Assembly (NCBI GenBank): GCA_031213475.1 | Contig: JARUPZ010000006.1 | Span: 5,204,045-5,268,044 of the forward strand | Source of the DNA: Nereocystis luetkeana | Lineage: Eukaryota > Sar > Phaeophyceae > Laminariales > Laminariaceae | Direction: 5' to 3' | Length of the DNA stretch: 64,000 nucleotides | Shown here: positions 1,412 through 63,322 of the stretch, piece by piece | Layout: every line of letters begins with the position of its first letter | Position numbering within the stretch: position 1 is the first letter of the stretch | Program-made: the position numbers and the translations under genes | Notes under the pieces: generated by a model | Seen by the model: only the letters and a program-made list of their open reading frames with translations | Told to the model about the DNA's origin: nothing | Database searches by the model: none

Positions 1412-4400
1412 AAGTGAGTGTATACTGCTGCTGTTGTAAGCGCAGTGTTATTAATAGTATGTCTGTGTATATCATCAGTAATGTAGTTTTGTTGCGATAA
1501 TACCCACCGGCAGCCACAGCAGTCGTCAGCAACCCTGGCCAAACCCGAAACCCCAGCCGCCCCCCGCCCCCTCCCCCCCACCCCATCCCATCCCACACAC
1601 CCCACCTCATTTATTCCCTCCCCCCCCCCCCCCAGCAGTTTACTGAGGATTAGCATACTATTAGCAAGAAACTTGGTGCGAGAAAATTCAAACACACAAC
1701 AAACGGCAAGCTCGTACAGCATCAAAGACACGAAAAAACTTGCGCGAGGGGCGCAAGCGCCACACACAGCGGACCTCACCCAGAGTAAACTGAACTGGGG
1801 AACTGCACGACGCAGCCATGGATTAATTATTTTCTCCCGTGTAACATCACCACATACATCATCGAGGATCCAAACGACGACAAAACAATATTTCGAGAGA
1901 GAGAAAATAGATAAGGTTTGGTAAACGCCCCCCCTAGGACAATGACATACCAGTTGTTAGTACCTGGTACATGAATGCATGACGTTATAATGATGAATGC
2001 GAGAGGAACCACGGGGCGGCCACTACTTACCACTATGTATATTATGGCAAGTATTTAATAGTACTGTAGTAGTGCCCTCTAAGGGCTGGTATAAATACAA
2101 AATCATACACCAGGTATACAAGAGGACACTCGTTTCACCCATCTACTAGTTAAAACTACACCGTACTCTACAGCACGTACTGCTGCTGCACCTACAAACG
2201 ATGCTATTAATACTATAATTTCAAGCAATTTGTCTCCAAAATAGCTGTGGTGTAATTCTCAAACGGGGTTTTAAGGTTGTACCACACTCTGGCCGGAAAT
2301 AAAGTTCCCGTTTCATATTGTCATCAGATACCAAATGTATACCACAATCTCGGCCAGGGTGATACGATACATGATGACATGTTGAGATGGCCCGCAAGGA
2401 TTTATTACAGTAGTAACTACGTCATAGATAGCCCCCCCGCACGTGAGCCCAACGGGCTGGGCAGCCCACACCTCTCCCCTGGAACCCCGAACCGAGACTT
2501 CCTTCGAGGGTATACCATGTACCGCCGCCCCACCCACCCAACTAATTGTCACCAATATTGGTCTCCTTCCTCTTATCGTCTGACAAACCATGTGCACAGT
2601 GCACAGAATGTGCGAGTGTGTAACCACCAAAAAGTGACGAGAGAAATAAATAGCTTGAGGGAAACCTTCGATTTATTTGTTTGTCGTTATTTTCCGTCGG
2701 CTGATTGTTTGGCTAAACGGTATTAAGTGACAAAAACCGACAACAACGCGGTACCCTGTAAAATAACGCATCGCACTTTTGATGCCAGGATGGACAGACA
2801 GGTCGACACGATCGCGTGAACCCATCGCCACCGCAATCAGCCGATAGTGTTGCAAAATATCACGCTATTTATGCACGCCAAAAAGAAATAGTCTGGGCGC
2901 TGTTTCGCCGCAGCCAAGACTGGGTCCAACTTGAATGGAAGAAGCATCACGCAATACTCCTATGAAGACCTACGAGATACTTACTATACCTGGTATGGGC
3001 TACGAAATTTTAGGACGGCAACTTCTTTTGTAGTCGTCATAGACCTTACCAGTAGATACCTGGTTACGCTTCATCATACACCTGATACTATTTGATAGTA
3101 CAATATAGTAGTAGCAGTAGCATCAATGTTAGTAGTGGTCATGGAAATTCCCAGCGACGTAGTTGTACTATTAATAGCAGGGAAATAGTCCATCAATCAT
3201 CGTGCATCCCACGAACAACGAAGAAAAACGGAAGTCTGATCCTCTCCAAGAAACCCAAAAACGCAAAACAAGGGCGTCGTCAACGTCATAGCCCATAGTC
3301 GTCAACTTATCTACATAGCTGCATAACTCAATCAGGTGACACCCCAGACCATAGCACAACTTCTGTGCCAGTGCGTAAAATAGACGTGTGAGGCGTCCTT
3401 AATCTCGCGGAAAATACATGAAACAAAACACACCACCCGGCGCAACTCGAACACAGGAATATGCGATATGTATGGAAGTTTTTAACTCACCCACACAGAA
3501 CCTACAGTAGTATGACCTCATACACATGGACAACAGAGTAGCGAACGTACACCACGCTTACCTACCAAACGATTCAATAATAATAGCCCTCGGTAGGCCA
3601 CGTACTGGTACTGGTAACGATACCTACACAGCAGTACAGCAGTTACTAATACGAAGTATGCACAGAAGATCAAAGGGCGAACGACCGCACGCTCTGCAAC
3701 TATTAGCGATGGCAATAGCAGATGTCGCACGTTAGGGGAAGACTCTGCGCCCGAGACCTCACAGAAAGCGTTTCCCCCCCCACACCCCACGTTGCTCTTG
3801 ACCATACGTCACGGCTAACGTGCACACCGCGCTTGATTGCCAGATGTTTAGCCACTTTTATCTCCGTAGTCGATACACCGGTTGTTCACTACTACGTACT
3901 AGAAAATGAAGCACAATCTTGACACCCTTCATTGCCCGACTTATTGCCCGGACACGCCCAGCAGTCATCGATGCCCGCCGGAAGCAACAGCAAACAAGCC
4001 CGGGACGCAGCACGCCAAAAGGTTTCTCTCAACAAAGCCGTCCGCCTCATCACAGAACCCAGTTCCCAGCCAACAGTAAAGGCGACAAGGGCGGCACCCT
4101 CTTCTCACCCCCCCCCCAAAACAAAACGCCTCCGTGACGACGTCATCGCCGCCATACTGCTAGTAGTGGGCACAACACAGCAGCAACAGCCAGCCCTCGC
4201 CACGACGTCTCTCCACCAATGCTGTATGTGCGTGCCATATTTGAATGGAAGCAGCAGCTACCAGTCGGCATATCGAATCTTGCAGATGGTGTGCCCGAAC
4301 TCCTCGTACTCCTGCTTGCTCACCGCGAAGCTGCCGAACTCCGGGCTCGCGCCGAAGAGCGAGCCGCCTGCGCACGGCGAAGCGCGCGAACAGGGTCCAC

Positions 4401-7400
4401 ACAACGACAACACAAGCGCGTGAGAAAGGGGTGGGGTCAGTTACCATCCAGTCTGCTTTACACGTACCTGGTGTATGCTGATACTTCGAAGTATACCGTC
4501 ATGTACGGGTACAAACGGCCACGTGCGAGGGAACACATTTTCAGAGGGGCGTCAAATTTTTCGACAGTTTCCCCCGGTGGGTGCATTTAACGGCGTGGCC
4601 GTCGATTGGACTCGGCCAACAGTAGCCCCGTCGCCCCTTCGGGTATCAGAGATAGCGACCAATGGGTATTGAAGACAGCGACCAGTACAATGGTTAGTAA
4701 CTCTGGTGTTATCAACCATCTGTGTACGAGCAGCGTGAGAGTCCAGCAGTACTGCTGTACGAGTAACGATAACGTAGCGCCCGTGCCGTACGAGTCCTTG
4801 CATTCCACCATTGTAATACTCGGACACGAAAGTTGTACGACCTACGTACGCAGCGGCGGTTGCTGTAATCGCGATTTTTTGTCGCCGGTTCTCTCCTCTG
4901 CAAGTGGGTTAAGCGAAGAGAAGCACGTATCAAAAAGGTATATTAATAAAAAGTGAAAAACAAAAAACAAAAACGTTGTACCAATGGTGAAGCAGGTCAA
5001 AAATCATGGTGCAATGAAAAGAAAATAAACGAAACGAAACGGAGGGCTAAACAAAACAAGGGAAATAAACGAAACACACGATGCATAAAGAAACGGAACA
5101 ATACGAACACAAAACGTCACAAAACGACACAAAACAACCCAAAACAAAACAAAAACCAAAACAATCAAACCAACTGAAACAAAGGAAACAAAGAGAACCG
5201 GAAAATAAAAATAAAAATGAAGGGTATAATAAGACACAAAATGAAATATCAGCAAGTACCCCCCCGGTACCTGGCACGTACCCAGTGAAAACCAAACCAA
5301 TACGAATAGCTTACTTACAAGTAAAGTAAGAAACAACAAAAACATAGACGACACAAAAAACCCTGCCGAAAAGAACAAACAAAAGAAAATTAGGGGGCGT
5401 TCACACACCTCGCCAGGCGTGCAGCGTGGGCTCTTCGGGGAGGATGACGTTGACCTCGCAGTGTGTCGGGGCTGAGGCGCGAAGGTCTCTGTACACCCGC
5501 TCCCGGAGGTTGGGAATAGCGCAGTTGCCCCCGGTCAGGAGAACATTCGCGTAAAACTGGGGGCGTAACGCCTCGGGACACCTGCGGAAACCCCCCACGC
5601 GCAAAGCACACAAGAAAATGGAGGTGGAAAAACGTTCAAACGTTGAGAGCGGAGGAACGGCACAGCAGCAGCAGCAGCAGCAGCAGCGGTACAAGACACC
5701 ACGTGCTGTAAGACACTCTTGCAGCATTTCAAAGCTCTCGCACAGATCATCTACCCATCATCGATTCCCGCTTCATGACCTCAATATTTCAGGGCGGATA
5801 TATTCCTGATCTGTACTGGTATAATATGTACAGCTCGTGTTGCCCATGTATTATTAGTACTGCGCTGTACCGAAGCACATATCTGGCACCTGACTCCAAT
5901 TCCAAGTAACAAGTCCCCCTGAACGGGAGGGCAGTTCTAAAGGGAATTTTAACTCCCAACACTCTGAAAAGTGGCGTCGCGTACAGTGCCACAAGTAGTC
6001 TACGCAACAAGCGCGATTGAACGCTTCGACAACTGTTATCAGCAACAGCAACCCTTGTGAGAATCCCGAGAGGAAAACTAAACAAAAAAAAGTAATCACC
6101 GACTACGTACCGTACGGTACTACTGACTGTATCTGCTATTTTTACGATTTTTTCAGACAAAAAAACGGCTGGGTTACGGGGACGATAAACATGCTCGAAA
6201 AAAAAAGAATTCGCACACACCCACTGAGTTCTACAGCTGTCAGAGTGCGTTACCCTCAATAAGGGGCACCAGGCACAATGTATATATATCCATACCTCGC
6301 ACAGATAGACCATTTACAGATAGATCATGATACTCAGTACAGATCATTTGTGAAGATCCCCACTGCTATTGTGAGACGTTATGCGGGATCTGCATACGTA
6401 GTCCATCTCTAACCCAGGAAACACGCTCTGCCGTAGATCATGCGGGTTGCACGGCTTGCTCCCACCCGGCAACATGGGCTCTCAACCATGAAGGGTCGGG
6501 AAACTGGCCTATTTGCCTTGAAAAATCTAGATCATCAAATGATCTGTACACGATCTGTACATGATCTGGTCATGGTATGTCCGAGGTGGGGATGTATGTC
6601 CTTCACGAGGGGGTATCAAACCCGTACAGTTGGTACATCCGATCGAAGCGTACGACACACACAGCATGCAAAGATGAGTTTTCGACGACATCCTCCCCCT
6701 ACGCAAAGCAGCAGGGAGCCTCCTGCGAGGCAAAGCGTAGTATTAAACTGCGTACAGCGCTGGGACGTAATCACGGGTCTAATGTTTTTTCTTAATATAC
6801 TACCGGGACGTGATCACAGCTCTGACATTTTTTTTAAATATTTACACTGAAAGCACGCTACGAGCGACAATCTAAGGGGTTAGGACAATGATCTCCAACA
6901 AAAGACGTTAGGAGACCGGTCATTCTGGGGCGGGTCAAGACTTCTTGCGTTTGTCTTTTACGCAAACTACTGTAGTTTTAGCGTAAGGGAGCGGTCAGTC
7001 AAGCCGTCACCAAGCGGTCAAACCGCGATCTCCTATTTACCTGATGGTGTGTTTTAGTGCAGGGGAGCGGTCAGTCAAGGAGTCAAATCGCGGTCTCCTC
7101 TTTATATAGCATATTTAGTGTAGGGGCTGTCACTCAAGGGATCAGACCGCGGTCTCCTATATATAGTATATTCGAGTGTAGAGGGGCGGTCAGTCAAGGG
7201 GTCAAATCAAGGTCTCTTTTACATATGGTGTACTTTAGTGTAGGGGGGCGTACAGTCAAGCGGTCAAGCCCCGGTCTCCCAGCATGTTTTAGTGTAGGGG
7301 GAAAGTCAGTCTAAGGCCGTCAGTCAAGGGATATTTTAGGTGTAGGAGGGGCGGTCAGTCAAGCGGCCAACCCGCGGTCTCCTCTATGTATAGGATATTT

Positions 7401-10400
7401 AGTGCAGGGAGCGGTCAGTCAAGCGGTCAAACCACGGTCTGTCGGGGGCCGGTCAGCCAAGCGGTCAACCCGCGGCTTTTCTATCAATCACCTTTCAGTA
7501 CAAGGGGGGGGGGGGGCGATCAGTCAAGGGGTCAAACCACGGTCTCCTCGTATAAATAGCATATTTGACCGGCAACGGAAAACGCACCGTCCTATGCAGG
7601 CCGCGATGGCCTCCGAGAGCCCCATCTGCCTCAGCCCGATGTTGGACGGGTGGAAGAGCACCTCCGGTATGTGGAAGCGCTCGTTTCCCATCGTCAACAC
7701 CTGAAGAGCAAAGCAGCGCGGCGGAGGTCGTTGGGGTTGGGCGCGCGCGCGCGCGTGGGGGGGGGGGGCGGGGGGTTACTCATTTTTAGCTTGACTCGGT
7801 CATGTGGCCATAGGCCACGCATCCCTGCCGAGAAGGAGCACCGTTCCTACTCCTAGTATCGAGACACCAGCATTTGGGCGATCACTACGCTTTTCCCCAT
7901 TGGTGATCTCTACCCAAGGATAGTTGAATATTTAGATATTTAGTTGGTGCCAGGCACTTACTTCGATCGTTTTCGGCATGTTCACTCGACGCAAAATAAC
8001 ATAACTTCCGCCGCCACTGCACGCGCACGGCTCATTTCCCTTGCCCCCCACTCTGAGGTAGTCTTTCCCTCGGTGCCTTACCACATTCGACCAGAACTAA
8101 AGTGTCACCCACCCATCTCCTACCCGTATTCCCTAGCCCCTTATCCATACTCCCCCCCCCCCCGAACCCGACATGCATGTCCGCGGGTACCCGCCACAAT
8201 CTTCTCAACTCACCGCTCGACCCCTCATCTCCTATATACCCCGGCATGTATGTCAGTGGCTGTTGGCCAGGACTCTTCCGCGCGGTTCTATCCCTATGTC
8301 CCCCGCCCCCCGACCCCGATCCCCTGTCTCCCTTCGACCCCGATCCCGACATGCCTCCCTGTGGCTGTTGGTAGTAACGTTCCGCGCCGACCGACTCCCC
8401 GAACCCCCTACAACTCCTACTCTGGTAAATGCATGCTTGTGGCTCTTGGTAAAATGATTTCGAACCCTCATCCTCTACATATAACCCCTATGCGGTACAT
8501 GAAATATAGCCCCCATCTCCTACCCCGAAATGCATTTTTCTTCCTCTTTTTGCCCATCTCCTCTCTTCTCTTCGCTCCGCTTTTCCGGCTCCTTCCCTTT
8601 CGTCCTCAGATCCGGTGTCACATGTCGCATACCAGGTACCAGGTATTTCGCCCCCAATAGCACCTACCAGGGTACAGCATTACACTTCCCTACCCCCGGA
8701 GCATGCATGCCTGCAGCCTGTCGAAACCCCTGCACCTCCTATCCATTACCACCCCCTGCCCCCCTACCCCCAACATGCATGCCTGCGGCTGTCGGTCGTC
8801 CTCCACCCCGAGGTCCTCCTGCTGCCGTCTTCTCGCCCGGGCCTCCCAGTCGACCTCTCTTGGGTAACCCTTCAGTACGCTCTTGCGATCCGGCAGGACG
8901 AACTCTCTGCCTCGAGGACAAGGACAGGGGACAACGGGGGGGGGGGGGGGGTGAGGGTGGTGGTGGTGAGGGTGGGGATGGGGTAGCTCTCGTCCAGCTC
9001 TGGCTAGGAACTCGAGCTGGTGGATATAACCAAGGGGTAAGTTCGGTACGGTATAATACCGGTCCCAGAGGCGTACCGAACTTACCGAAGTGTCGGGTAC
9101 CAGTTTTGAGGCCGTGCCGAACTTACCGAGGTGTCGGGAAACGGTGTTGAAGTCGTACCGAAGTTACCCATGTGTCGGGTACCAGTATTGAGGCCGTACC
9201 GGACTTACCGAGGTGTCGGGTAACGGTATCGAAGTCGTACCGAACGTACCGAAGTGTCGGGTTCCGGTATCGGGTTCGTACCGAACCTATAACCGGAGTG
9301 TTCGGTAGGGATTTGAGGCCGTACCAAACTATACCGAGGACTTCGCCAAGGTATCAACACCCCCGAGATACCTTGGTACGTGTGTACCGTGCTGTATACC
9401 CTATGGAACATACACACCCTGGGAATAGTAATATTGGCAACGACTACTTATCATCAACTGCTGTATGCTCTAGTTGGAAGAGGCCTTTACCAACGACGAA
9501 AACAAAAAAAGGTTATCGGAGATTTTTTCGGCAGCCGGACCGGGCGGATTTCCGGCTTCTTTCATTCTCTTTACGCATAGGATCTCCGGCTTCATTCACC
9601 AAGCTCAAACGTAACGCATCAACCCTTTTAGGACCGCAGCCACGTTTTGGGGGCAAAACTACTTAGAATTTGAGTGGTTTGTCCGCCTAAACGGGACTGT
9701 AGTTCCGAAAAGGGTTCAGGCACGTCGTTCCAAAAATTAAGGCATGCCCTATCCCCTACCACTCTGAACGCAAGTATTAGGAACTCTTGGTGCGCTTATC
9801 AAATGACTAGTAAAAGTTTCGTGTACTTCATCTCAGGATGGTCTATTTTTATAGGCGGCCGTGTAAACGTGAGCAACTCGCTCCGCGCGCTCGTGATAAC
9901 TTTTTGTCAATTATTTTCTCCTTTTTCTTTTTCTCGTCGAAAAGCCCCTGGTCGGCAAAATAAAAAGGGCCGCACCTGACGATGGGGTTGTCCGGTCGTA
10001 CCCACCGCGCCGCGCGTAGGTCGGCGTCCAAGTCGAGGCTAACGTAACTAAGCGAGTCCTTCACCTCCTGCATGAGCTGTGGGGAGAGAGGGGAGGAGAG
10101 GGCGGGGGAGGGTAAGGAGTAAACACGAGAGGGGAGGGAGGGCGTTGAGGGGGAAGGAGGAGAGGGGGGGGCACTCATGACATGCATAGACCCTCGCAAC
10201 CCTAGAACGCTGGGACGGAGCACGTCGGGTTGTCACTGTCCAGGCAGACATTGCTTGCGCCAAGCGCCAAGGGGAAAGAGAATGGGGGGGGGGGCGGGGG
10301 GGGTCACGTGCGGGATTACTGAATATATCACCGGACGGGAATAACTGCTGTTAGTGAAGGCCCCTCGACAAAGCGACGAAGAAGTTCAGTTTGGTCACCT

Positions 10401-19947: not shown

Positions 19948-21046
19948 GTGTACACTACACACAGCCTCGCTGTTTCTCTGTCCCTTCTTCGCCAAAAGTG
20001 ATATGATGGTGTTCCAACCTTTTAGTGAAGGCTACTAAAGGCAGGGAATCGGGTACATTTCGGTTACACGTTTTCTTCCCTGTTTTTCCTTGGCACGACC
20101 ACACGTCTATTCGCACGTATGAGTAGACATTTTTTGTAGCCGTATGATAGGAGTACGAGTACGAATAACGTACAAGAGTTGTAAAACGGATACCTGGTAT
20201 ACTGCTGTATACGCCGGTACAACCGGTTTAGCTGCCGATGTTGGAGCGAAGAGCCGCAGCCCAGTGCAGCAGTACAGTACAACGCCAACTACCGGCAGGA
20301 AGAACCTCCAGCACTCGCTCGGTGCAGGAGGACCTGGTCTACAAACAGGCCGTATTTCGCGATCACGAGGAAACGGGTGCTGGAGCCGCAGCAGTCCCGT
20401 CCAATGGGTCTCGGGGACGACCGCAACAACCCGTCCCCGTCATCAGCTCGGACCGACCGATGCATGTACAAAAAAAGGTTAGTTCCACCTCCAAGAGATC
20501 GACACATACCAATGCAGCTCGCTAGAGCTGTAGATACTCAGTAACTGTTCAGGTAGAAACGGAGTACCAACCAGAGGGTGTGTTCTCGCGTAGACAAAGT
20601 GCAGGTACTGGTGGTAGATATCGTGGATACAGACAACCGGCAGGAGGTCGTCGCTGCCGCGCGGACTAGCGAGTGCTGTTTTACTTTCAACAAGCACCGA
20701 CACCGATACGCGACAAAACATGGATATCCGCGCGGAGTACCTATCTCGTTGTTTGGGAGGTAGGAATGTTCGTGCCCAAGGGGCGACAGCAGTCTTTGCT
20801 CGTTTAGGTTGCGGTCTTGGGTCAGGGTCAGAGATAGGGATAGGGTTGGAGTTAGGAGTTGGGTGAGGTCTACGCCAGCACATGGAAATAAAAAGCAATA
20901 ACACCAGCTACGGCACCATACAACACACCAGAAACCCACACCCCCTGGGATGATTTTCGAGCCGGTTTTCCCCGAAACAAAGAAAGGGAGGCACTTACTC
21001 CCAGCGAAAACGGTGGCGTCGGAGACATCTCCTCGGGGTATTTCCA

Positions 21047-21077
21047 TACCAGGTACCTGGTACCCTGGTACCTGGTA
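21047..21077. repeat. Four stacked TACCWGGTA-type motifs
   Basis: The sequence reads TA-CCAGG-TA-CCTGG-TA, then -CCCTGG-TA-CCTGG-TA. It lies upstream of ARP6 in the intergenic gap. Confidence 0.95.
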
Positions 21078-23489: not shown

Positions 23490-23900
23490 ATGCCAAATTG
23501 GCATTTTTTGGCGAGCATATATTTTCAAGGGTTCGCTGCGAAAAAAATTGCCAACCGAAATTCGGATTTCCCAAATTTCCACAAAGTTGCCATTGAAGGG
23601 TTGGCGGAATATGTGAAAAAAACAAGCAGTGAGTTGCCTGCCAAATTTGTCGGACCTAAATTTCAGTTTGCATGGTCTTACCCAATGGAAACACTATACC
23701 TGGTAAGCCAAAAGTCAGTGTCATTACAAACGGCCCTGAAAACGGGTCAAATGGCGCTGGTCGATGCCTTGTCTGAAGAGGAGTGCGAGCAAAAGTGGAA
23801 TTATTTACAGCTTCGGAGTGGGCAGACGGGACAATTTAGTTTATTCGTTTTTCGGGGTTCATTTTTTCGCGTATGTAGGCAGGCGAAAAGAGATTTTTAA
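23490..23900 (+). CDS. Unassigned open frame
   Basis: A 136-codon open frame reads like ordinary protein in its middle part (for example SSELPAKFVGPKFQFAWSYP and SEEECEQKWNYLQL), unlike the repeat-driven frames around it. The ends are Phe/Arg-rich and look noncoding. I do not recognise a family. It may be an exon fragment, a transposon remnant or chance. Confidence 0.25.
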   Translation: MPNWHFLASIYFQGFAAKKIANRNSDFPNFHKVAIEGLAEYVKKTSSELPAKFVGPKFQFAWSYPMETLYLVSQKSVSLQTALKTGQMALVDALSEEECEQKWNYLQLRSGQTGQFSLFVFRGSFFRVCRQAKRDF

Positions 23901-57200: not shown

Positions 57201-60200
57201 GCATCGCTGCACGTACCCGGCTACAGGTAAAGGGCGGACCCAGATAATATAACAACAGAGAGATACGAAAAGCAGAACGGTATCATGTGGTGACGTTCGC
57301 AGCAGGCCTCGTTACTGTTGGGTGGCAGCATGCCTGCCTGCATATCAGTAGTAAACTCATGTCGGTTACAAGTTACAGTATTGAGAACAGCATGGATGCC
57401 TACATACCAGTAGTAAACCCGCGAGGACGCCACAAGTATTCATCTCCGTGTCGGGGTCCCAGGAGAGCATACCTTCGGGGTGGGTGGAGAGGTAGAGATC
57501 CCTCTCCCAGAAAACGACAACCCCCCCTCGCTTGGTGGTACAGCACACGGAAAAAAGAAAAACACACACCACGCTCCTAATATGGTCAAAATGAAAAGCA
57601 CAGACATTGGGTTAGGATGTCTACACGTATACAGCAACCTAACAAGTTTGTGTTGCATCATTTGTTTGACCTGGTTTTAGTACGCCTGCCCCCCCCCTCC
57701 GCTTGTTGCGAGCGATATCGGCCTGGTCGCAAGCGGTTCTCTTGTAGCAAGTTGCAACCGACCCTTTCGCGCGACTCGCCAAACACATCATGGCGCTTTG
57801 TGCTTGGTGCAAGCAATGCCTGCCTGGTCGGTGGAAACCCGACGTGCTCCGTCCCAGCATTGTAGGGGTGCAATGGCCTATGGTCATACGACTACGGTCA
57901 TGCATGACAACGAATACCCCCCCCCCCTCGCCCCCCCCCGTCTAGGTAGGCCTCGGAAAAAACACATGGCGTTTCGTCTTTAGACCTAGTCGTTCGATCA
58001 TATAGCACCCTCCCCTCACTTGGTGGCGGTGCCGCTGAGCTCTGAGAGGGCGTTCTTGAGCAACGCCTCCTTTTCGTCGGACTCCTGGAGCTTTTGCGCC
58101 AGTAACGCGGCGTTTTTTCTTCCCTCCGCCGCCGCTACCTTTGCACCCTCGAGCTCTTTCGCCATTCTGGACAGTTCCGCCCGCTCCGCCTTGTTTTTTT
58201 TTTTAGTTTTCGGGCACGCCCACATTTGTTGGGGGCAGATTACTCCCAAGTAGAAATTATGCGGGTGGGAAAGCTACTGTTGCAGTGTACGTAGAAAGAG
58301 GTTTAAGGCGGCTGGGTTTCAGAGGTGACGAAATCGTTGTTCAAGGACGAAACAAAACGAAAGCTTTCGTGGGCGGCTGCTCTCAGCAGAGCCCGAATCA
58401 ATGATATTATTCCCTCAGGTATCGTTCCCCGGTGTCGTTTGTTCCCTGAACCCACCACTGATCGCTGACTGCAGTTAGAGACAAGTTGTTGATAGAGCGT
58501 TTTCAACTGCCTGACCAAAAATGGCGTCCAGGAGACGTTTTGCCTCGCACGGTATGATTAAGGACGACGACAAAACTAACACGAGCGTGGAGCACGAAAA
58601 ACCAAAGAACACTGAAAAGCCTGCCGAGATAGTTTACAGGGTTAAAAAAAACGAGCAAAGGAGAAACCGAGCAAAGTCCACGCGCCCATTGTTGCGTGCA
58701 TCTCCTCGGGAACTTCTTACACAGGCGTGCTACGATATATAGGGGTATATATATCACCGGCTTTTTCCGAGAAATTTCCTAGACTCCTCATTTGAGAAAA
58801 GTTTAAACCTTAAGACCAATAGATAATCGTCTCACGGGCTATATATCAAGTCTTGGGCATCTATCTAAGGAATGAAGCACCTTGAAAATTACCCATCGGA
58901 TCCAATCATACAATGGTTGTGCAGCTCTTCAGCTTGCAACGGTTGAGGAGGTCGGTCTCGGTGATAAAACGTTTAGGGCGCATAAGGTGCAAACCCCGAA
59001 TACGTGTCGTGTAGGACGACTCCGGTACTACAAGTAGCTGTTTCCTCACACTAAGCCGCCGTATATGGTGAAAGATTTCGACACCCGACACCACCACGAA
59101 CGCTTCGCTACACCCATGAAACTGCACACCACCAACACCTGCTCCGCATTGGTTAGGTAAGTGCACGCCGGCGCCACCAACACGACAAACAAAACGCACG
59201 TTTCGCCGCTCCGTATATACAGCAACGAAACAAATGCCGCGTCGACACCACCAACGAGCAATATCATACGGTGAGACCTCACATTTCCGCCTTCTCCGGC
59301 CGCTGCCGCCGCGGCACCCAATCCAAGCCCGCCCGCCCCCCCAATCCCCCCGCCCCCAGCGACCTCTCCACTAGTGGAGGCCAGCTGATCCCTCAGCTGA
59401 GCATTTTCGTTGCGGAGCTGTTCTGCCACGGCGGCGGCGGCGGCGATATCCGTTGCTGTGGGCATGGTGTTGCCGAAACCGGGAGCCGCGCCTATGGCGG
59501 GGGTGGCGGGTGTGTTGGGTGCGGTTGGCATCCCCCCTCCCTCTGGGAAGTTCTTGTTTTTTCCGAGTTCGGCCTGAGTCATTAGGGAGGGAGGGAGGGA
59601 GGGAGGGAGGGAAGGGTGCGGGATAAGGGGCACTTCATATGCTCTGGATGCTTGAATTGCCAATCTGTTACCCACATGCCCTCGGAGGAACGCGTATTAC
59701 GCGAGTTGAAGGGGGGGGGAGGGGACACAGATATACCGAAGCAGCGCAATAGTTGTATGAGGTTGTATTCTGTTCGCAGAATCGTGATGATATCAGGCAC
59801 AAAAGCTTCGTGAAGCCGAGCACTGCATCTGTAAAAACTTTCTTGCAACCAGCCGCCAGGTATTCTGGAGCACCATTTTGTCGGTGCCCGCGTGCGATAC
59901 GACCAAGCCAAACAGAGGCTTTCAGAGGTTGATGGCAAGGCGATGCCAAAAAAACATATACCTGGTACGTGATACGATCAATTCCCTTGTGCGGAGTAAA
60001 GGCTCTTTACCTCGCACAAATGATCTAACTCGACGACCAGCTGTGGGCAACCGCCAAAAAAATATAAAAAAAGCGGCACCCTGGTTGTCTAGCTCACGTA
60101 GTGAGTGGTATGATTTACAGTGTTGTTGCCAACCGACGCCAACTCAACCTATATATATATATAATTGGGGGGGGGTGGGGGTTCTGCTCTCCTGTATGCA

Positions 60201-60725
60201 CTCTGCACTTAAGCGTTCGATTGATAGAGAGCATCGTACATCCAAAGGTGGCGCGGTCTACTCGTGACCACTACGAACCTGGAAATGAGTTTGACAGCAG
60301 GATTGGGGGCCACCGTAATACAACATTGGTTGATAGCATACCCCTTCGAACGAATTTGTGAGCAGATTTTCTCGTCGATCGGGAGAGTGCAAACGCCCAA
60401 CGATGCGCCTATTTGTAGAAGAGGTCTCGACGAGACCACATTCCACGTCCCATCGTTTTCGTTTCCGTCCCTTTTTGTTTGTAGTGAACCCAGGGATGTG
60501 TGTGTTGTCATCCCAGGTGTGTATGTGTGTTGGCCATCGTCGTACGTGCCATCATGTAGCTACAGCGGGGCCTCTAAAATGGCGGCGGGTGTGCTTGCAA
60601 GTACTTTGCTTGCGTTTTGAGTCACGCCGTCATACATACATACATACATACATACATACATACATACATACATACAGGCATACCTGGTACATACATATAT
60701 ACTTACACACATGGCCATACATACA

Positions 60726-60757
<32 letters not shown>

Positions 60758-62166
60758 ATATACCAGGTATATATATATCAGGTACATACATACATGAATA
60801 CATACATACATACATACATACATACATACATACATACATGCATACCTCCAGGGCTAGGATCTCGCTGGCTAGCTGATCAGCCGTTTTTTCCAGCTTTTTA
60901 TGGGTCACGAACTTATCCCTGATAGCGGCCTGCAACAACAAACCAACCGAGAGGATGGGGGGGGCAGCCGCGACGACAGGGGTGGAGGGAGGGAGGGAGG
61001 GACGGGGGGGGGGTACGTAGAGAGGGGAAAGAGTCGATATAGGTTAGTGTAGACCCGTGCTTATTGTGTGTCGGGAGTACGTAGCCTTTACAGCTATTCT
61101 GAAAGTCGGCTGTTGAGTAAGGTGAGGATTCCCTCCTCAAGTAAAAAGCGAGAGTCAGAAACAAAAAGTAGGTGCTACTGCTACCCCCCCCCCCCCCCAG
61201 TCGAACTCAGCACGGCGTCCACTGCGTAGCGAAGAAGCTGATGCACGCGTCGGCGACAGCAAATTTCGTGGAAAACACACAAAAAGTGTACAGATACATA
61301 TATCGACAGCAAATTCCCTGGAAAATGCGAGGGGTGTAGATAAAGATGGGAGGAATACAATCGCTGAGCGTGCTGCAAACGTTGAGCGCGTCAGAGGGAA
61401 GGAAGGCTTTATTTTGGGAGGCGAGAATGTGTCTTGCTTGAAACGAATACCACCCTCGGCGGAAAAATAAGGGCGGCTTGAAATTCATTTTAATGTATGA
61501 ACTATCCTTATATTTCCGTTCAGAGAGGTATAGTTTTTTGCTATTTTTAGGGGGGAATATTTATGAGTGACCAAGGCTGAAGCTCACGCTGCCTGGGCAT
61601 TGCAGGATTTTTCTCCAACACGAAAGCAGTAACAATAGCGCCGGTCATTACACACCGTACGTGTACGTGTTAAAAGTTGCGGCCTCTCGACAGTCGCCGC
61701 TTCAGCGTGCCTTCCAATCATTTTCGAAAGGACGAGAAAGAGCATTTTTTTGTTGAGGAAGATATGCAGAGGTGTACTACACCGCGTGTGTCACTCGGCG
61801 TGGAATTGGACGACACGCCGATCGCACCGCGCCATAATAGAGACACTGGCTGTGCCTGTGAGCTTCGTGGAGATAAGAGCTGCAGCCTGACGCCACCCGA
61901 CGTATGTACGAGATCGAAGATAAGAAGAAAAAAAAAACGAAACGTTCCTCTAGAGCGAAAATGAGCGCGAGCCTATCTATAAAAATGGTCCATGAAAGCG
62001 GGATTACAGCAATCGCGAGCGTATTTTCAAAAACGGACCAGTTATTAAGCGAAAACCTTTTGCGAGATTATTGCGACCAAAGCCTATTCACCTTATCCTC
62101 GTTCCCGGCAGGCCTCCCCTCCCTCTCCTCGAAAGCCTTCATCCATTCCTTGATCTCAGCTTTTAC
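24709..62166 (-). CDS. C-terminal-motor kinesin, kinesin-14 class (whole gene, 24 exons, 5' end uncertain)
   Basis: This gene encodes a microtubule motor with its motor domain at the C-terminus, as in minus-end-directed kinesin-14, including plant/algal KCBP. The 24 exons keep phase throughout and give 1454 residues plus stop. Residues 1-53 carry a GRP-x-DK motif recalling the FAM13 C-terminus. Residues 54-1082 are mainly Ala/Glu/Lys coiled coil, broken by Gly/Ser/Ala linkers at about 54-150, 372-492 and 660-950. The neck and motor follow (about 1083-1430): [22 protein letters not shown] (P-loop, about 1177-1184), NAESSRSHS (switch I), VDLAGSER (switch II), IPYRNNKLT and [11 protein letters not shown]. 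All nucleotide-binding motifs are intact. The tail is a 24-residue basic helix ending at 24709. No MyTH4 or FERM domain is visible; more 5' exons may lie beyond 64000. Confidence 0.92.
25906..26052 (-). CDS. Kinesin exon: end of motor domain
   Basis: The exon encodes [20 protein letters not shown] through [20 protein letters not shown] and [15 protein letters not shown] are the last motor motifs. Phase 0; donor CAG|GTGCGT. Confidence 0.96.
26388..26580 (+). mobile_element. Family J, SINE-like repeat, copy 1
   Basis: It shares with 31425-31605 the order GTCGGGTCAAC, CAGCAGC, GGTTAAATTG, ACACG, GTGGTGAGCTT and the hairpin AATCCGCCGGAGGATT, followed by an A-rich tail. The tail and fixed 3' hairpin suggest a retroposed short element; no pol III boxes were recognised. 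Confidence 0.5.
27072..27295. mobile_element. Family B element, degraded
   Basis: Only the middle words remain clear: GGTTGTGTGGGATCGGTATG, AACCCAGGAAGCACCCGCT and CACTCGGCAGCATGTAGCTA. It lies next to kinesin exon 27307-27519. Confidence 0.6.
27307..27519 (-). CDS. Kinesin exon: switch II
   Basis: The exon encodes 71 residues. Motifs in order are [12 protein letters not shown] (switch II), [20 protein letters not shown] and [11 protein letters not shown]. Phase 0; donor CAG|GTAAAC. Confidence 0.97.
27672..27812 (-). mobile_element. Family D dispersed repeat
   Basis: This copy is in reverse orientation: CATGCATGGCCGTAGTCGTA through to GCTTGCACCAAGCG. A 40-bp neighbour, GTCGAGCGGGTGGGGTGGTT at 27614, is repeated at about 28211, suggesting a local duplication. 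Confidence 0.75.
27992..28190 (+). mobile_element. Family H dispersed repeat, copy 1
   Basis: About 195 bp starting CGTGATACGATCAATTCCCT is nearly the same as 59968-60160 in the same orientation, with roughly 90 percent identity by eye. It contains TTGTCTAGCTCACGTAGTGA. The class is unknown. Confidence 0.8.
28479..28604 (-). CDS. Kinesin exon: switch I
   Basis: The exon encodes [20 protein letters not shown] through [10 protein letters not shown]. It contains NAESSRSHS, the switch I signature (NxxSSRSH). Phase 0; donor GAG|GTACGC. Confidence 0.95.
30025..30262 (-). repeat. Tandem partial copies of a kinesin exon end with its donor
   Basis: The word ACGACCACGTTCTTCACAAC (plus strand) recurs at 30031, 30094, 30161 and 30221, giving spacings of 63, 67 and 60 bp. 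The 30221 copy is the real exon end. The others lie in the intron, and two of them keep a recognisable AAGGTGGGTG-like or CTTAACG-like junction. Confidence 0.85.
30217..30366 (-). CDS. Kinesin exon: motor, NExxxDLL region
   Basis: The exon encodes [20 protein letters not shown] through [13 protein letters not shown]. It matches the S-xx-EIYNE-x-DLL region of kinesins. The donor is AAG|GTGGGT. The last third of the exon together with this donor is repeated three more times in the adjoining intron. Confidence 0.95.
30461..30748. mobile_element. Family B element, diverged
   Basis: The middle words GTGTTGCCCAGGATCTGTAT and AGGAAACATGCTGCAGTAGA identify the family; the ends are eroded. It lies about 95 bp from kinesin exon 30217-30366. 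Confidence 0.7.
30770..31815. repeat. Degenerate ACTACTTCCACCTTA minisatellite
   Basis: Units of about 30-40 bp built on ATCAACAAAAACTACTTCCA and CCTTA occur at 30770-31270 and 31612-31815. A different sequence (family J) lies between. Confidence 0.65.
31425..31605 (+). mobile_element. Family J, SINE-like repeat, copy 2
   Basis: The copy ends AATCCGCCGGAGGATTAAAA plus more A, like 26388-26580. It splits two stretches of the ACTACTTCCACCTTA minisatellite (30770-31330 and 31612-31815), so it may have inserted into it. A related 3' end occurs near 47040-47075. Confidence 0.5.
31837..32059. mobile_element. Family E inverted-repeat element, complete copy
   Basis: A 223-bp element has about 34-bp inverted ends starting TATCACACTAGGGTGATAAG. 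The interior holds AAAGCTGGGTTTCTCGTCAA on the minus strand. No coding capacity beyond a short chance frame. Confidence 0.9.
32079..32160. mobile_element. Family C small inverted-repeat element
   Basis: GGGCGGAAATATAAGGATCG faces CGGTCGTTATATTTGCGCCC. It abuts the right end of the family E element at 31837-32059. Confidence 0.78.
32439..32550. mobile_element. Family A MITE
   Basis: CTATTCCGGAGGACCATAGC at one end faces CTATGGTCCCCCGTGATAG at the other; the core is ATATTGTTAGTAGAAATGGT. Diverged ends. Confidence 0.85.
32734..32881 (-). CDS. Kinesin exon: P-loop
   Basis: The exon encodes [20 protein letters not shown] through QAKGAIE. It contains the intact Walker A motif GQTGSGKT and the [11 protein letters not shown] segment. 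The donor is GAG|GTATCC. Confidence 0.97.
33904..34014. mobile_element. Family A MITE
   Basis: TACGGGGGACCATAGTTAAC faces GTTAACTATGGCCCCCCGTA. The sequence is very close to the 11993 copy. Confidence 0.92.
34407..34479 (-). other. tRNA-like sequence, probably a relic
   Basis: The minus strand shows an A-box-like TGGCTCGGTAAGTGG and a B-box-like GGTTCAAGTCTC 73 nt overall, with a good T arm (GTGGG-TTCAAGT-CTCAC). Only five of seven acceptor pairs form and no clean anticodon arm is seen. A functional gene is unlikely; a pseudogene or tRNA-derived repeat is more likely. Confidence 0.4.
34508..34621. mobile_element. Family A MITE
   Basis: CTATTACGGGGGACCATATT faces ATGGTTCCCCGTGATAA; the core is inverted compared with 33904. 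Confidence 0.88.
35023..35307. mobile_element. Family B GATC-rich element
   Basis: ACACCTCGGACAGATCAATG to TTGTCTGACGTGTGG, with CTCATGTTGCCGGGTGGGAG inside. Near full length, about 100 bp from kinesin exon 35411-35587. Confidence 0.85.
35411..35587 (-). CDS. Kinesin exon: motor
   Basis: The exon encodes [20 protein letters not shown] through [14 protein letters not shown]. It includes [19 protein letters not shown], the F-x-FD-VF-Q-x-VF region of kinesin motors. The donor is GG|GTGAGA. Confidence 0.94.
36061..36143 (-). CDS. Kinesin exon: neck and first motor strand
   Basis: The exon encodes [20 protein letters not shown] then ARCRPFA plus two bases. This is the conserved kinesin-14 neck entering strand beta-1 of the motor. 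Acceptor TTTCGCAG, donor CA|GTAAGT. Confidence 0.95.
36492..36629 (-). CDS. Kinesin exon: coil leading to the neck
   Basis: The exon encodes 46 residues, [20 protein letters not shown] through [10 protein letters not shown]. The join [10 protein letters not shown] to the next exon matches the kinesin-14 pattern KEQ-VLRKRYFN, which fixes the boundary. The donor is therefore CAG|GCAAGC, a GC donor; no phase-0 GT donor is available nearby. Confidence 0.9.
36665..36842. repeat. Tandem repeat, about 67 bp unit, 2.7 copies
   Basis: GATTGATGAGACCCTCTCTG, CTGCGATCGGCCTGAGACCC and CAGAGCTACTACCCCCCGGG recur almost unchanged beside kinesin exon 36492-36629. Confidence 0.92.
36930..37550. repeat. Degenerate 45-55 bp repeats
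   Basis: Words AGGCGCAAACAAAAA, GCAGTCAGGAGGCAATG and CTACGTA recur about a dozen times with drift in the kinesin intron 36630-40096. Confidence 0.7.
38158..38434. mobile_element. Family B GATC-rich element
   Basis: Begins CACAACTCTGACAGATCATC and ends ATGTATCTGTGAGACGTGCG. The interior GCTCATGTTGCCGAGTGGGA and ACATGTTTCCTGAGGG are family words. Confidence 0.8.
39366..39481. mobile_element. Family A MITE containing a TACCTGGTA site
   Basis: CTATTTCGGGGGATCATATT faces TTAACTATGGCCCCCCGTAA. The core reads ATATATACCTGGTAGGTTTT, where the family has ATATATAGGTTTT. Confidence 0.9.
39640..39899. mobile_element. Family B element
   Basis: The interior CATGTTGCCGGGTGGGACCC and GGATCCGAACCATGCAGGTC place it in the family. 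The left end abuts a G run of about 20 bases. Confidence 0.75.
40097..40195 (-). CDS. Kinesin exon: coiled coil
   Basis: The exon encodes 33 residues, [20 protein letters not shown] through KERDELRQQ. Phase 0 at both ends; donor CAG|GTGAGG. Confidence 0.86.
40297..40465. repeat. Direct repeat, about 77 bp, two copies
   Basis: CTATTGCTCGCATGAGGTAC, GGAAAGGTAAGGACCGTTGG and CACTTCCCACCTTTCGCACC occur twice in a row with very few changes. Confidence 0.92.
40465..40712. mobile_element. Family B element
   Basis: The interior GTGTTGCCGAGTGGGGGCCG and GATCCTGCGCGACATATC match the family; the terminal repeats are eroded. Confidence 0.72.
41140..41234. mobile_element. Family F inverted-repeat element, copy 2
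   Basis: TTAACCCCTTTAGTACCGCA and CCCGATTTGGGGACAAA face TTTGTCCCCAAAACGGGATT and CCTAAAAGGGTTAA. Strong hairpin of about 95 bp. Confidence 0.85.
41371..41647. mobile_element. Family B element carrying a TACCTGGTA site
   Basis: The interior GTGTCCCGGTGAGGCACCCG is a diverged form of the family word; the right end is ATGATCTACCCGAGGTGTGC. A TACCTGGTA lies at about 41525. Confidence 0.75.
41707..41856 (-). CDS. Kinesin exon: coiled coil
   Basis: The exon encodes 50 residues, [20 protein letters not shown] through [10 protein letters not shown]. Phase 0 at both ends; donor CAG|GTGGGC. Confidence 0.87.
42380..42541. mobile_element. Family A MITE with duplicated right end
   Basis: CTATTACGGGGGATCATAGT faces ACTATGGTCCCCCGTAATAG. 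The segment TTTGGTCCTATTTACTATGG occurs twice about 48 bp apart, making the copy 162 bp long. Confidence 0.88.
42999..43078. mobile_element. Family C small inverted-repeat element
   Basis: CACTCTGGACGTAAATATAA and GGACCG on the left face CGGCTCTTATATTTCCGCCC on the right. About 80 bp. Confidence 0.82.
43180..43405. repeat. GGGTC/GACCC dispersed element, copy 2
   Basis: The inverse of the 24190-24385 arrangement: GGGTCGAGTCGGGTTGAATC units, the spacer AAGAAGTTTTCAAACACGGA, then GGGTCACCC and a GACCTGACCC array. Confidence 0.75.
43518..43735 (-). CDS. Kinesin exon: Gly-run linker
   Basis: Split Val codon, then [19 protein letters not shown], about 25 almost uninterrupted Gly residues, and a coil [16 protein letters not shown]. 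The donor is AAG|GTGTGT. The Gly run is encoded by GGC/GGT trinucleotide repeat and is likely length-variable. Confidence 0.87.
44090..44830. other. AT-rich stretch in a kinesin intron
   Basis: This stretch is visibly more AT-rich than its surroundings and lacks the window's usual repeat families. It includes a tandem pair of 36-bp units (GCTCAACATCTCAATACCTG at about 44508 and 44543). No gene is supported. Confidence 0.5.
44866..45530 (-). CDS. Kinesin exon: largest exon, Ser/Ala/Gly-rich
   Basis: This 665-bp exon encodes 221 residues. A helix ([20 protein letters not shown]) leads into Ser/Arg-rich, Ala/Thr-rich and Gly-rich stretches with a coil between ([20 protein letters not shown]). 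It ends EDKVEDLE plus one base at donor G|GTGAGT. Confidence 0.88.
45711..46240. mobile_element. Family B element with repeated left arm
   Basis: The left arm (ACACCGGAGACAGATCACCG, TTCATGATCTACTGTAGGTG) occurs about four times in a row at 90-110 bp spacing. A single middle and right end follow. The whole is about 530 bp instead of about 300. Confidence 0.75.
47224..47304. mobile_element. Family C small inverted-repeat element
   Basis: ACACTCTGGGAGTAAACATG and AGGACCG face CGTGCCTCATAGTTCCGCTC and AGAGTGGT. Confidence 0.78.
47527..47718 (-). CDS. Kinesin exon: coiled coil
   Basis: The exon encodes [20 protein letters not shown] through DLRVALAAA plus two bases. The acceptor CTCCTCAG keeps the split Arg codon shared with the previous exon. 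The donor is AA|GTGAGT. Confidence 0.83.
48539..48778. mobile_element. Family B element
   Basis: The copy runs from CACGGCTCGGACAGATAGAT to TTTCTGTCCGAGGC, with CCCGCTCGGCAACATGAGCT inside. It is somewhat shorter than the norm. Confidence 0.8.
49084..49290. mobile_element. Family E element, diverged
   Basis: CTTTTCTCGACAGCGGCGAC, AAGCGATGCATACGTCTACG and GGCCACCGTTTCTGGTTG line up with the copies at 50370 and 63787. The termini are eroded. Confidence 0.55.
49753..50030. mobile_element. Family B element
   Basis: The copy runs from CACAAGTCGGACGGGCAGGT to GATCTGTCCGAGGTGC. It contains the uninterrupted word CATCTAGATCCTAACCTGCC, used below as an empty-site reference. Confidence 0.85.
50370..50582. 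mobile_element. Family E element, diverged
   Basis: GCCGAGCGATGTGTCTCATA, GGCCACCTTTCTGGTTGCGT and the right end GTGTTATCGTATCACACGTG match the family layout. The left end is not clear. Confidence 0.6.
51159..51356 (-). CDS. Kinesin exon: coiled coil
   Basis: The exon encodes [20 protein letters not shown] through RPPTPVGN plus two bases. A nearer donor, AG|GTGCCA near 51197, would drop 13 residues without changing frame. Confidence 0.8.
51741..51851 (-). CDS. Kinesin exon: coiled coil
   Basis: The exon encodes [20 protein letters not shown] through VILAQE, with split codons at both ends that match its neighbours. The donor is AAG|GTGCGG. Confidence 0.87.
52290..52769. mobile_element. Family B element with an internal insertion
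   Basis: The left and middle parts (AGATCATCTAGATCTTAACC, CCACCCGGCAACATGAGCTA) are separated from the right end (TTCTGTCCGAGGTGTGAG) by about 170 bp of unrelated sequence near 52485-52660. Confidence 0.75.
53075..53436 (-). CDS. Kinesin exon: Ala/Ser linker between coils
   Basis: The exon encodes 120 residues plus two bases. A short coil ([15 protein letters not shown]) is followed by a long Ala/Thr/Ser/Gly stretch and a second coil ([20 protein letters not shown]). The acceptor is TTACCACAG and the donor CAG|GTGCGG. Confidence 0.87.
53680..53900. repeat. CAATCAACCAAC-type tract
   Basis: AACC/AATC words without G dominate, like the tract at 14120-14430, beside kinesin exon 53075-53436. Confidence 0.75.
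54072..54255. repeat. CAT/ATC trinucleotide array
   Basis: An interrupted array of CAT units with a short inverted ATG section in the middle; it produces the long Ser, His and Met frames here. Confidence 0.95.
54804..54956 (-). CDS. Kinesin exon: coiled coil
   Basis: The exon encodes 51 residues, [20 protein letters not shown] through GQSEAEKK. Phase 0 at both ends; donor AAG|GTAGGT. Confidence 0.86.
55600..55746 (-). CDS. Kinesin exon: coiled coil
   Basis: The exon encodes 49 residues, [20 protein letters not shown] through SEAARLREQ. Strong heptads. Acceptor CTCCACAG, donor CAG|GTGCGT, phase 0 at both ends. Confidence 0.88.
55829..56098. mobile_element. Family B element, diverged left end
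   Basis: The interior GGCTCCCGCTCGGCAGCATG and right end ATTCATCTGTCTGAGGTGTG are clear; the left end is eroded. Confidence 0.72.
56644..56836 (-). CDS. Kinesin exon: linker and coiled coil
   Basis: The exon encodes [12 protein letters not shown], then a coil [20 protein letters not shown] through ETLQNAQQ. The chosen donor CAG|GCGAGA would be a GC donor. A GT donor in phase 0 exists about 36 bp further into the intron, so the 3' boundary is uncertain. Confidence 0.75.
57804..57918 (+). mobile_element. Family D dispersed repeat
   Basis: This copy is close to the one at 13644-13765 along its whole length, including the TGCAAGCAATGCCTGCCTGG start and the CATGCATGACAA end before a C run. It lies in a kinesin intron beside exon 58020-58189. 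Confidence 0.8.
58020..58189 (-). CDS. Kinesin exon: coiled coil
   Basis: The exon encodes [20 protein letters not shown] through [10 protein letters not shown] plus two bases. It has clear heptads. The upstream acceptor lies after an A-rich rather than pyrimidine-rich tract, so its exact start is slightly uncertain. Confidence 0.82.
58521..58742 (+). CDS. Small basic open frame inside a kinesin intron
   Basis: An ATG in good context (AAAAATGGCG) opens 73 codons: [20 protein letters not shown], then a Lys/Arg/Asn-rich stretch ending TQACYDI. It lies antisense in the intron 58190-59282. No family is recognised. It could be a nested small gene or a first exon, but it has no supporting signals beyond composition. 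Confidence 0.25.
   Translation: MASRRRFASHGMIKDDDKTNTSVEHEKPKNTEKPAEIVYRVKKNEQRRNRAKSTRPLLRASPRELLTQACYDI
59283..59573 (-). CDS. Kinesin exon: Gly/Ala-rich linker
   Basis: The exon encodes 97 residues, starting [18 protein letters not shown]. It has a short heptad stretch, [16 protein letters not shown], and then a Gly/Ala-rich end. Phase 0 at both ends; the donor is AAT|GTGAGG. Confidence 0.85.
59959..60160 (+). mobile_element. Family H dispersed repeat, copy 2
   Basis: Same sequence as the copy at 27992-28190, but preceded by TACCTGGTA where copy 1 has only TA. Confidence 0.8.
60634..60840. repeat. CATA tetranucleotide array interrupted by TACCWGGTA sites
   Basis: CATA units run up to the donor of kinesin exon 60846-60929. 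TACCTGGTA (60681-60689) and TACCAGGTA (about 60760) interrupt them. Confidence 0.95.
60846..60929 (-). CDS. Kinesin exon: continuation of GRP-DK motif
   Basis: The exon encodes [20 protein letters not shown] then ASEILALE. The IRDKF-x-KKLE pattern continues the FAM13-like block of the preceding exon and leads into coiled coil. The donor is GAG|GTATGC, directly beside a CATA microsatellite. Confidence 0.85.
61449..61530. mobile_element. Family C small inverted-repeat element
   Basis: ACCACCCTCGGCGGAAAAAT faces CCTTATATTTCCGTTCAGAG. The ends are more diverged than in the 42999 copy. Confidence 0.72.
62092..62166 (-). CDS. Kinesin exon: GRP-DK motif
   Basis: The exon encodes [20 protein letters not shown] then GNEDK. 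The pattern IKxW-x-FE-x-GRxP-x-DK recalls the conserved C-terminal block of FAM13 proteins. Both ends are phase 0 and the donor is AAG|GTGAAT. Confidence 0.8.
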
Positions 62167-62219: not shown

Positions 62220-62462
62220 AGGCAGATCGATGCCCGATCTTGTATTTTCTACAGCAGTATTACGGGGGACGACAGTAAATAGGACCTACGGACTCTCAAA
62301 AACCTATATATTTCGGTATTTTTACTAACAATATATTTACTATGGCCCCCCGTAATAGTAGCTTATGTTGCCGGATGGAACCCGTACTATGTTTATGATC
62401 TAGCACATGTTTCCTGAGTTGGATCTATACCACGCAGGTCCTGCACAACCTCTCACGACCCA
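62220..62462. mobile_element. Family B element interrupted by a family A MITE
   Basis: The family B words TAGCTTATGTTGCCGGATGG and GGTCCTGCACAACCTCTCAC lie to the right of a complete family A copy (62258-62358). GCAGATCGATGCCCGATCTT lies to its left. Confidence 0.75.
62258..62358. mobile_element. Family A MITE nested in family B
   Basis: TATTACGGGGGACGACAGTA faces TACTATGGCCCCCCGTAATA. Family B sequence lies on both sides. Confidence 0.85.
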
Positions 62463-62940: not shown

Positions 62941-63322
62941 CGGACAAATCACGATCCAGGCAATCTACCTGGTAGATCCCAAACCCGCCGTTTTGAGATA
63001 TTGATGTGCAAGATCTGTACGGTACAGATTCGACCCAGTGAACGTGTCCTAGATCATGCTGGTTGTAAGGCTCCCACCCTGCAACATGAGCTAGATCATA
63101 CAGATCATACAGATTATACAGATCATACATATCATGTATCATACAGATCATACAGATCGTACGTATCATATATCGAACAGATTATACAGATCATATATAT
63201 CGTACGGATCATACAGATCCTATGGATTACACAGATCTACGGATCGTACAGGTCATAAATATCATACAGATCATACTTATCATACAGATCATACAGATCA
63301 TGGATGATCTTCCGAGGTTTGG
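62941..63322. mobile_element. Family B element with expanded GATCATACA array
   Basis: The left arm, middle (CCCACCCTGCAACATGAGCT) and right end (GATCTTCCGAGGTTTGG) are present. About 200 bp of AGATCATAC-type units have grown between middle and right end. The left arm carries a TACCTGGTA at 62966-62974. Confidence 0.8.

Follow-up and report, generated by a model that had tools for sequence, protein, structure and literature searches.

TACCWGGTA words in the Nereocystis luetkeana genome as probable excision scars of a TA-targeting transposon

Annealed overhangs of Sleeping Beauty and other Tc1-type transposons carry a mismatch mid-way. Here we compare such elements with the near-palindromic word TACCWGGTA, which recurs in a 64,000-nucleotide stretch of the genome of Nereocystis luetkeana (GenBank assembly GCA_031213475.1, contig JARUPZ010000006.1, positions 5,204,045 to 5,268,044 of the forward strand), referred to as the window and numbered from its first letter. 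The passages compared here describe Tc1-like elements as preferring ATATATAT, the central TA being the target, and Tc1/mariner footprints as being 2 to 4 bp long (PMC7913693). TACCWGGTA resembles the Sleeping Beauty, ZB, and Tc1-type footprints of that account in the TA target, the AT-rich palindromic target preference, and, if the scar derives from the end of an element as proposed below, in such an end piece between two TAs (PMC7913693).

The typical somatic scar of Caenorhabditis elegans Tc1 is +4, compared with +7 here (PMC13148408). The 5′ inverted terminal repeat of Mos1, the Drosophila mariner element, starts with CCAGG (CCAGGTGTACAAGTAG and CCAGGTGTACAAG), as suggested below for the lost element, and Mos1 substrates carry a 3-base overhang, whereas a 5-nt overhang is proposed here; five common letters are a weak link (PMC3419177). 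For Stowaway/Osmar5 of grasses, the passages compared report end pieces of 1 to 4 bp and one case, TACTCC...AGTA, with six letters over both ends; these scars are few, variable, and from one gene, in contrast to the ~182,000 copies of one scar found genome-wide here (PMC1925063). Hsmar2 footprints are variable (PMC3770610), and none of the passages compared describes a uniform 5-nt core (PMC7913693, PMC13148408, PMC1925063, and PMC3770610). The brown alga Ectocarpus, perhaps of the same broad lineage as the host, contains 17 Mariner-Tc1 families with ~12,000 copies, mostly non-autonomous, and a word-start search of the main text of that paper gave no instance of footprint, excision, or CCAGG (PMC12477816). 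Literature searches, which left subscription journals mostly outside, did not return the words themselves, and no genome-wide scars on this scale appeared in the titles or abstract starts of the matches listed. The novelty lies in how large the scar record is. Unusual points are the scar number, a 5-nt core that is uniform throughout, and the fact that no maker has been found so far.

The window contains exactly 29 TACCWGGTA sites (19 TACCTGGTA and 10 TACCAGGTA), compared with 0.48, 0.46, and 0.66 expected for both words together from base composition, an order-1 model, and an order-2 model, respectively. An earlier note on this DNA had counted about 29 against about 0.5, and its figures hold. 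Each word is the reverse complement of the other; whether A or T stands at the centre depends on the strand that is read, and the alternation in which the same note saw evidence provides no independent support. In a sample of 261.5 kb, which added to the window 20 pieces of 10 kb taken from ten contigs, TACCWGGTA was the commonest complex 9-mer, with 107 copies compared with 2.3 expected from an order-3 model. The median count of the 256 words of the form aWa′ was 2 in this sample, and ten of 11 permuted-arm controls were found 0 or 1 time; the eleventh, CTAC, reached 33, which we read as a simple repeat. The number of sites per 10-kb piece ranged from 1 to 9 (mean, 3.9; variance, 7.4), and six extra 10-kb pieces contained 0 to 6 each. 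Genome-wide, in the one assembly analyzed, 182,395 copies were counted in 465,085,209 bases, or one every 2.55 kb, compared with 1,744 for the reversed word, a large excess in the count that the note had proposed as a check; since the pattern is self-complementary, forward and reverse strand counts refer to the same sites.

A word this sharply defined could be a short recognition motif (a transcription factor, replication, chromatin, or RNA signal) that purifying selection has held exact, and in the window the 29 exact sites outnumber all one-mismatch neighbors together (16). Against such selection, one-mismatch forms exceeded order-3 expectation in the 261.5-kb sample (97 compared with ~53), indicating that the word seems to decay; ten permuted control words had 20 to 41 one-mismatch forms each.

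Both flanks of each site were joined around a plain TA, and other copies of the joined sequence were then sought. In a larger sample of 336.5 kb (pieces L001 to L028 and L038 to L043 plus the window), 16 of the 129 sites had other copies, yielding 200 alignments, and TA was read in 107 of the 122 junctions that were ungapped, the other 78 being gapped. Insertion at TA with TA duplication, a trait of the IS630-Tc1-mariner group, was therefore observed, as was the alternation with a plain TA in related copies on which the earlier note had made its reading depend. The cleanest case was L022:2187, which carries a scar where all nine other copies shown have a plain TA; these empty copies include one at 27990 of the window, and the scar at 59959 of the window has this right flank as well. 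A dispersed repeat resembling a miniature inverted-repeat transposable element (MITE) holds the 39425 site at its central TA and gave 35 alignments with 25 clean junctions, 21 of them TA; two copies on the minus strand (33905 to 34015 and 11994 to 12103) lack exactly 7 bp at this place and represent empty sites. An earlier run covered 114 sites, 18 of which had copies; of its 175 alignments, 50 lacked exactly 7 bp and left TA, 1 had the full word, and 124 fell in neither class. Controls of the form TA-N5-TA, of which 600 out of 1,057 were sampled and 110 had copies, gave 6 exact absences and 171 identical cases among 763 alignments. The TACCWGGTA sites thus behave as insertions. Repeat copies that lack exactly 7 bp and read TA argue against a recognition motif.

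Four of the 16 sites occupy the same central TA of one MITE family (39425 of the window, L012:6350, L022:8898, and L040:8053), indicating that this TA is a target hotspot. The case of L014 was unclear, its other copies belonging to a local tandem array. The MITE-like repeat is ~110 bp long, with inner ends ACTATTACGGGGGACCATA...CCCCCGTAATA and an AT-rich centre in which the hotspot lies. It has many copies in the sample; apart from the two empty copies given above, those of the window are at 32435 to 32549, 34507 to 34632, 39365 to 39482, 42381 to 42542, and 62258 to 62359.

Sites were also stacked. In the 261.5-kb sample, six pairs were spaced by exactly 7 bp, and every other step below 60 bp was seen at most once, a pattern attributable to reuse of the two flanking TAs of a scar as targets. 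The window contains two stacked scars with a common TA at 8630 to 8645 (TA-CCAGG-TA-CCAGG-TA), two at 18989 to 19004 (TA-CCTGG-TA-CCTGG-TA), both exact matches with a 7-bp step, and four consecutive scars with common TAs at 21047 to 21077, which read CCAGG, CCTGG, CCCTGG (a +1 slip, 21061 to 21070), and CCTGG. In viral contigs, the raw count of stretches containing the 16-bp double scar was nine. Exact 7-bp steps with a common TA are a further point against a recognition motif; with the polarity of imperfect forms along end-joining slips reported below, they leave that explanation most improbable.

The hotspot and the stacks also bear on the proposal that the sites are left by elements resembling internal eliminated sequences (IESs), removed in a programmed manner during development, the sequenced tissue containing the processed sites. 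Ciliate IESs provide a TA-bounded precedent, and the proposal would account for ~182,000 scars with no resident element in 339 kb. However, stacked scars, such as the four at 21047 to 21077, require that insertion and excision recurred at a single place and were inherited, and scars at the same TA in four MITE copies, beside many empty copies, point to ordinary transposition with a hotspot. We consider IES-like removal very unlikely.

The flanks of 95 isolated sites, with the two sides folded, showed A at −3, Y (T or C) at −2, R (A or G) at −1, and A or T at −6 to −8, mirrored on the other side, relative to a background of all TA dinucleotides of the sample. Leave-one-out mean log-odds scores were 1.39 for sites (standard deviation, 2.5; n = 100) compared with −1.79 for plain TAs (standard deviation, 2.6; n = 3,092). 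A symmetric AT-rich target preference, which is a second trait of the IS630-Tc1-mariner group, was thus observed. This signature may resemble the target consensus of C. elegans Tc1; no occurrence of that consensus was found among the literature matches listed. High scores were also obtained for simple repeats (CATACA, TATA, and others), MITE pieces (GGACC and AAAACC), and CAGATCA, so that the signature alone is no proof.

Imperfect scars provided information on the end of the putative element. In the model, 3′ overhangs CCAGG pair as C:G, C:G, A.A, G:C, and G:C; after a one-base slip two pairs remain, and the inserts expected between the TAs are CCAG (or CTGG) and CCAGGG (or CCCTGG), whereas those expected from the alternative overhang CCTGG are CCTG and CCTGGG. 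In the 336.5-kb sample, in which exact TA-CCWGG-TA was found 129 times (2.1 expected), CCAG was present 34 times (11.9 expected; target-signature z, 6.5) and ranked first of 61 four-letter inserts. CCAGGG was present nine times (0.60 expected; z, 3.7) and ranked second of six six-letter inserts, behind the MITE piece AAAACC. The inserts predicted from CCTGG were found 15 times for CCTG (9.1 expected; z, −0.3) and once for CCTGGG (0.37 expected; z, 0). Counts for other inserts were 11 for CCGG (3.6 expected; z, 3.2), 11 for CCCGG (1.7 expected; z, 3.1), and 4 for CCATGG (0.42 expected; z, 1.9), and this sample contained no scar retaining both overhangs in full. TA-CCA-TA, the 3-nt scar of Mos1 type, occurred 57 times (39.8 expected) with a weak signature (z, 2.6), which does not match a 3-nt stagger. 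TA-CAG-TA, a candidate scar class resembling that of Sleeping Beauty, was raised (128 compared with 51) but lacked the target signature and was rejected.

Because the slip model was post hoc in the sample, the genome-wide counts of TACCAGGGTA and TACCTGGGTA provide its sole forward test. TACCAGGGTA was found 11,422 times (5,725 + 5,697; reversed control, 409) and TACCTGGGTA 1,578 times (780 + 798; reversed control, 362), a ratio of 7.2 to 1 in the predicted direction. This polarity suggests that the lost element ended in 5′-CCAGG rather than CCTGG. The earlier note had left the parent ends as CCAGG or CCTGG; the slip variants favor the former, and the parent element was not found. The corresponding −1 slip polarity pair consists of TACCAGTA, expected from a CCAGG end, and TACCTGTA; together with TACCATGGTA and TACCGGTA, it forms a spectrum that would help separate a 5-nt from a 4-nt overhang. 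Seven occurrences of TACCAGGGTA in one assembly region (G000:C1:1305185-1308362) are spaced 528 bp apart, apparently in a tandem array bearing a copied imperfect scar.

The polarity also bears on direct insertion of the 7-bp word, with no larger element, by a tiny mobile unit or by error-prone polymerase or ligation activity at TA nicks. The insert is nearly palindromic and its parent is unseen, as this explanation would have it. On the other hand, it predicts neither the Tc1-like symmetric target signature nor the −1/+1 slip polarity, both of which fit a dimeric transposase and overhang annealing, and direct insertion is highly improbable.

We assign a probability of about 0.86 to the reading that TACCWGGTA was left on excision by a cut-and-paste, TA-targeting transposon acting like Tc1/mariner, probably with a 5-nt stagger. 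To judge from the target signature, the element would integrate at a TA in a symmetric AT-rich context and duplicate it. Excision would proceed by cuts at the 3′ ends of the element and, on the other strand, ~5 nt inward from its 5′ ends, so that each flank would retain CCAGG as a 3′ overhang. These overhangs would anneal with an A.A mismatch, repair of which would place CCAGG or CCTGG between the TAs, the net gain of 7 bp being that observed in the repeats. Annealing slipped by one base would give TACCAGTA or TACCAGGGTA, in line with their enrichment and polarity, and the two usable TAs that remain would allow later insertions to stack in 7-bp steps, as in the stacks described above. Long repetition by an element that stayed rare could have produced ~182,000 scars, one per 2.5 kb. 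Derivation of the scar from the element's own ends would fit the exact and slipped forms alike. The finding is real, and the mechanism put forward in the earlier note, repair of a self-complementary 5-base overhang left by a TA-targeting element, is probably right, being well supported by the 7-bp absences, the TA signature, and the genome-wide slip polarity.

If the excess of one-mismatch forms reflects decay, mean divergence would be ~5 to 7% per base, an upper bound since part of the excess is imperfect repair. If mutations are assumed to arise at 1e-9 to 1e-8 per base per generation, the 182,000 scars would correspond to ~0.004 to 0.04 new ones per genome in each generation. This could be achieved by a rare, modestly active element over millions of generations, and a burst would not be needed.

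The search for parent ends and a DDE transposase, which the earlier note had proposed, returned neither. In 339 kb, 118 half sites (TACCWGG without the second TA) had no common extension outside other repeats and stacked scars; in this set, as in an earlier one of 102, the result covers the best-matching pairs, which fell in other repeats or stacked scars. The 339 kb amount to 0.07% of the genome, in which several matching ends would be expected from a family of several thousand copies, and a family of hundreds would have been missed. Also rejected was a 25-bp candidate at L007:2208 (identical in place to L008:422), TACCTGG-15 bp-CCAGGTA, as a single case in 339 kb with the wrong end polarity for the slip spectrum. 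PF13358 (DDE_3) had no genome match among 30 candidates scored, with a control that gave a signal in 3 of 14 genomes, and PF01359 (Transposase_1) had none with a control that was likewise silent, which makes this second result uninformative. Since element and transposase are unseen, membership in Tc1/mariner is unproven. Scars of another TA-target superfamily, for example, a CACTA-like one, would be a sub-case of the excision reading, with overlapping odds, and would agree with the lack of a DDE_3 match in the genome; TA target and AT-rich palindromic preference are jointly described for Tc1-like elements in the passages compared (PMC7913693), and we regard such a superfamily as unlikely. Slightly less doubtful, and still speculative, is a TA-targeting lineage of transposases that has escaped recognition, with a 5-nt stagger and near-pure hit-and-run behavior, in which excision would be so reliable that few copies stay resident and the ~182,000 scars preserve its history; in its boldest form, excision would be developmentally programmed and the element confined to another life stage.

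Besides the half sites without a common extension and the lack of a DDE_3 match, several observations weigh against excision by a Tc1/mariner-like element. The core of the scar is 5 nt, compared with the 2 to 4 bp given for Tc1/mariner footprints (PMC7913693), a usual range that is not strictly defining. The gapped junctions made up 78 of the 200 repeat alignments, most of which were supplied by one MITE family, and L018:7520, L021:9581, L013:1490, and L010:782 fitted poorly or were unclear. The count of one-mismatch forms (97) was not above that of the eleventh permuted control, CTAC (100). The excess of CCAG and CCAGGG was known before the slip model was written, so that the result in the sample is a fit. 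The disfavored TACCTGGGTA was still 4.4 times its own control, for which single-base duplication in an exact scar could be the source. Finally, CCWGG could equally come from a 4-nt overhang, CCAG, if annealing were shifted by one base and the gaps then filled. Since such an overhang would form two pairs and no CCAGGG, compared with four pairs for a 5-nt overhang, 5 nt fits better, and the stagger, as judged from the scar, is probably 5 nt.

The remaining sites of the window are given here without strand. Exact matches to TACCTGGTA lie at 1961 to 1969, 2987 to 2995, 14433 to 14441, 16452 to 16460, 20191 to 20199, 23697 to 23705, 32334 to 32342, 42106 to 42114, and 42899 to 42907, and exact matches to TACCAGGTA at 18888 to 18896, 18961 to 18969, 24892 to 24900, 28434 to 28442, and 50981 to 50989. 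The TACCTGGTA scar at the central TA of the MITE-like repeat (39425 to 39433) is a 7-bp insertion relative to the other copies. The TACCTGGTA site at 18202 to 18210 has one other repeat copy, whose junction is TA in one alignment and ambiguous in another. At 41524 to 41532, TACCTGGTA lies in a diverged dispersed repeat, several copies of which align better to the collapsed site without a clean junction. The TACCTGGTA scar at 59959 to 59967 has the repeat CGTGATACGATCAATT as its right flank and a left flank diverged from the repeat; the scar-free copy, ACTACGTGATACGA, is an empty site on the plus strand at 27990 to 28003. The TACCTGGTA site at 62966 to 62974 is found where a dispersed repeat of AGATCAT type has its edge, with weak empty-site evidence (three more aligned bases upon collapsing). 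Exact matches are also present at the edge of a GTAT microsatellite (TACCAGGTA, 14534 to 14542) and within a CATA microsatellite (TACCTGGTA, 60681 to 60689; TACCAGGTA, 60761 to 60769). Of the 17 coordinates listed in the earlier note, 12 were exact and five were off by 1 or 2, the right starts being 18202, 20191, 23697, 32334, and 50981. Imperfect forms include a +1 slip-class word, TACCAGGGTA, at 8665 to 8674, and ten TACCAGTA/TACTGGTA words that are −1 slip candidates, about one-third of this class being expected by chance; the first is at 3047 to 3054, and the others start at 3603, 3609, 5814, 9180, 16714, 29736, 36012, 42880, and 57405.

The long GTAT/CATA microsatellites extend from 14540 to 14896, with one scar at the border, and from 60631 to 60845, with two scars inside. 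A dispersed repeat rich in AGATCAT and ATGATCTGTA is found at 6291 to 6330, 15090 to 15204, 16520 to 16559, 38197 to 38298, 49794 to 49995, and 63066 to 63321, and includes tandem units of 9, 11, and 15 bp, many of which have a TA at each boundary. In sample piece L015 (G000:C4:1000001-1010000), 2,500 of the 10,000 bases are N. The window had no Rfam match at the gathering score. Pfam analysis of 30 of the 318 listed open reading frames of the window gave two matches below the cut-offs and a kinesin motor-domain exon (27265 to 27519, minus strand; 85-amino-acid open frame; PF00225, E = 1.6e-26), whose third codon positions are 81% GC. Among the 120 listed of its 4,047 relatives, some are named kinesin family member C2/C3, and three carry the name of an organism, two from the oomycete Aphanomyces euteiches and, lower, one from Arapaima gigas, which would agree with a stramenopile host, perhaps a brown alga. 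The claim of the earlier note that no site lies in an assigned exon holds for this sole confirmed exon, to which the check was limited and which is site-free.

Transposon activity is usually read from resident copies, whereas departures seem to be marked here and may thus be counted, dated by their decay, and mapped. The imperfect scars suggest, from sequence alone, the end letters of a lost element and the way in which broken ends are joined in the host. Counting this word in other genomes may reveal elements overlooked by repeat annotation. For the host, one scar per 2.5 kb would represent a large supply of 7-bp insertions, each causing a frameshift when in an exon.

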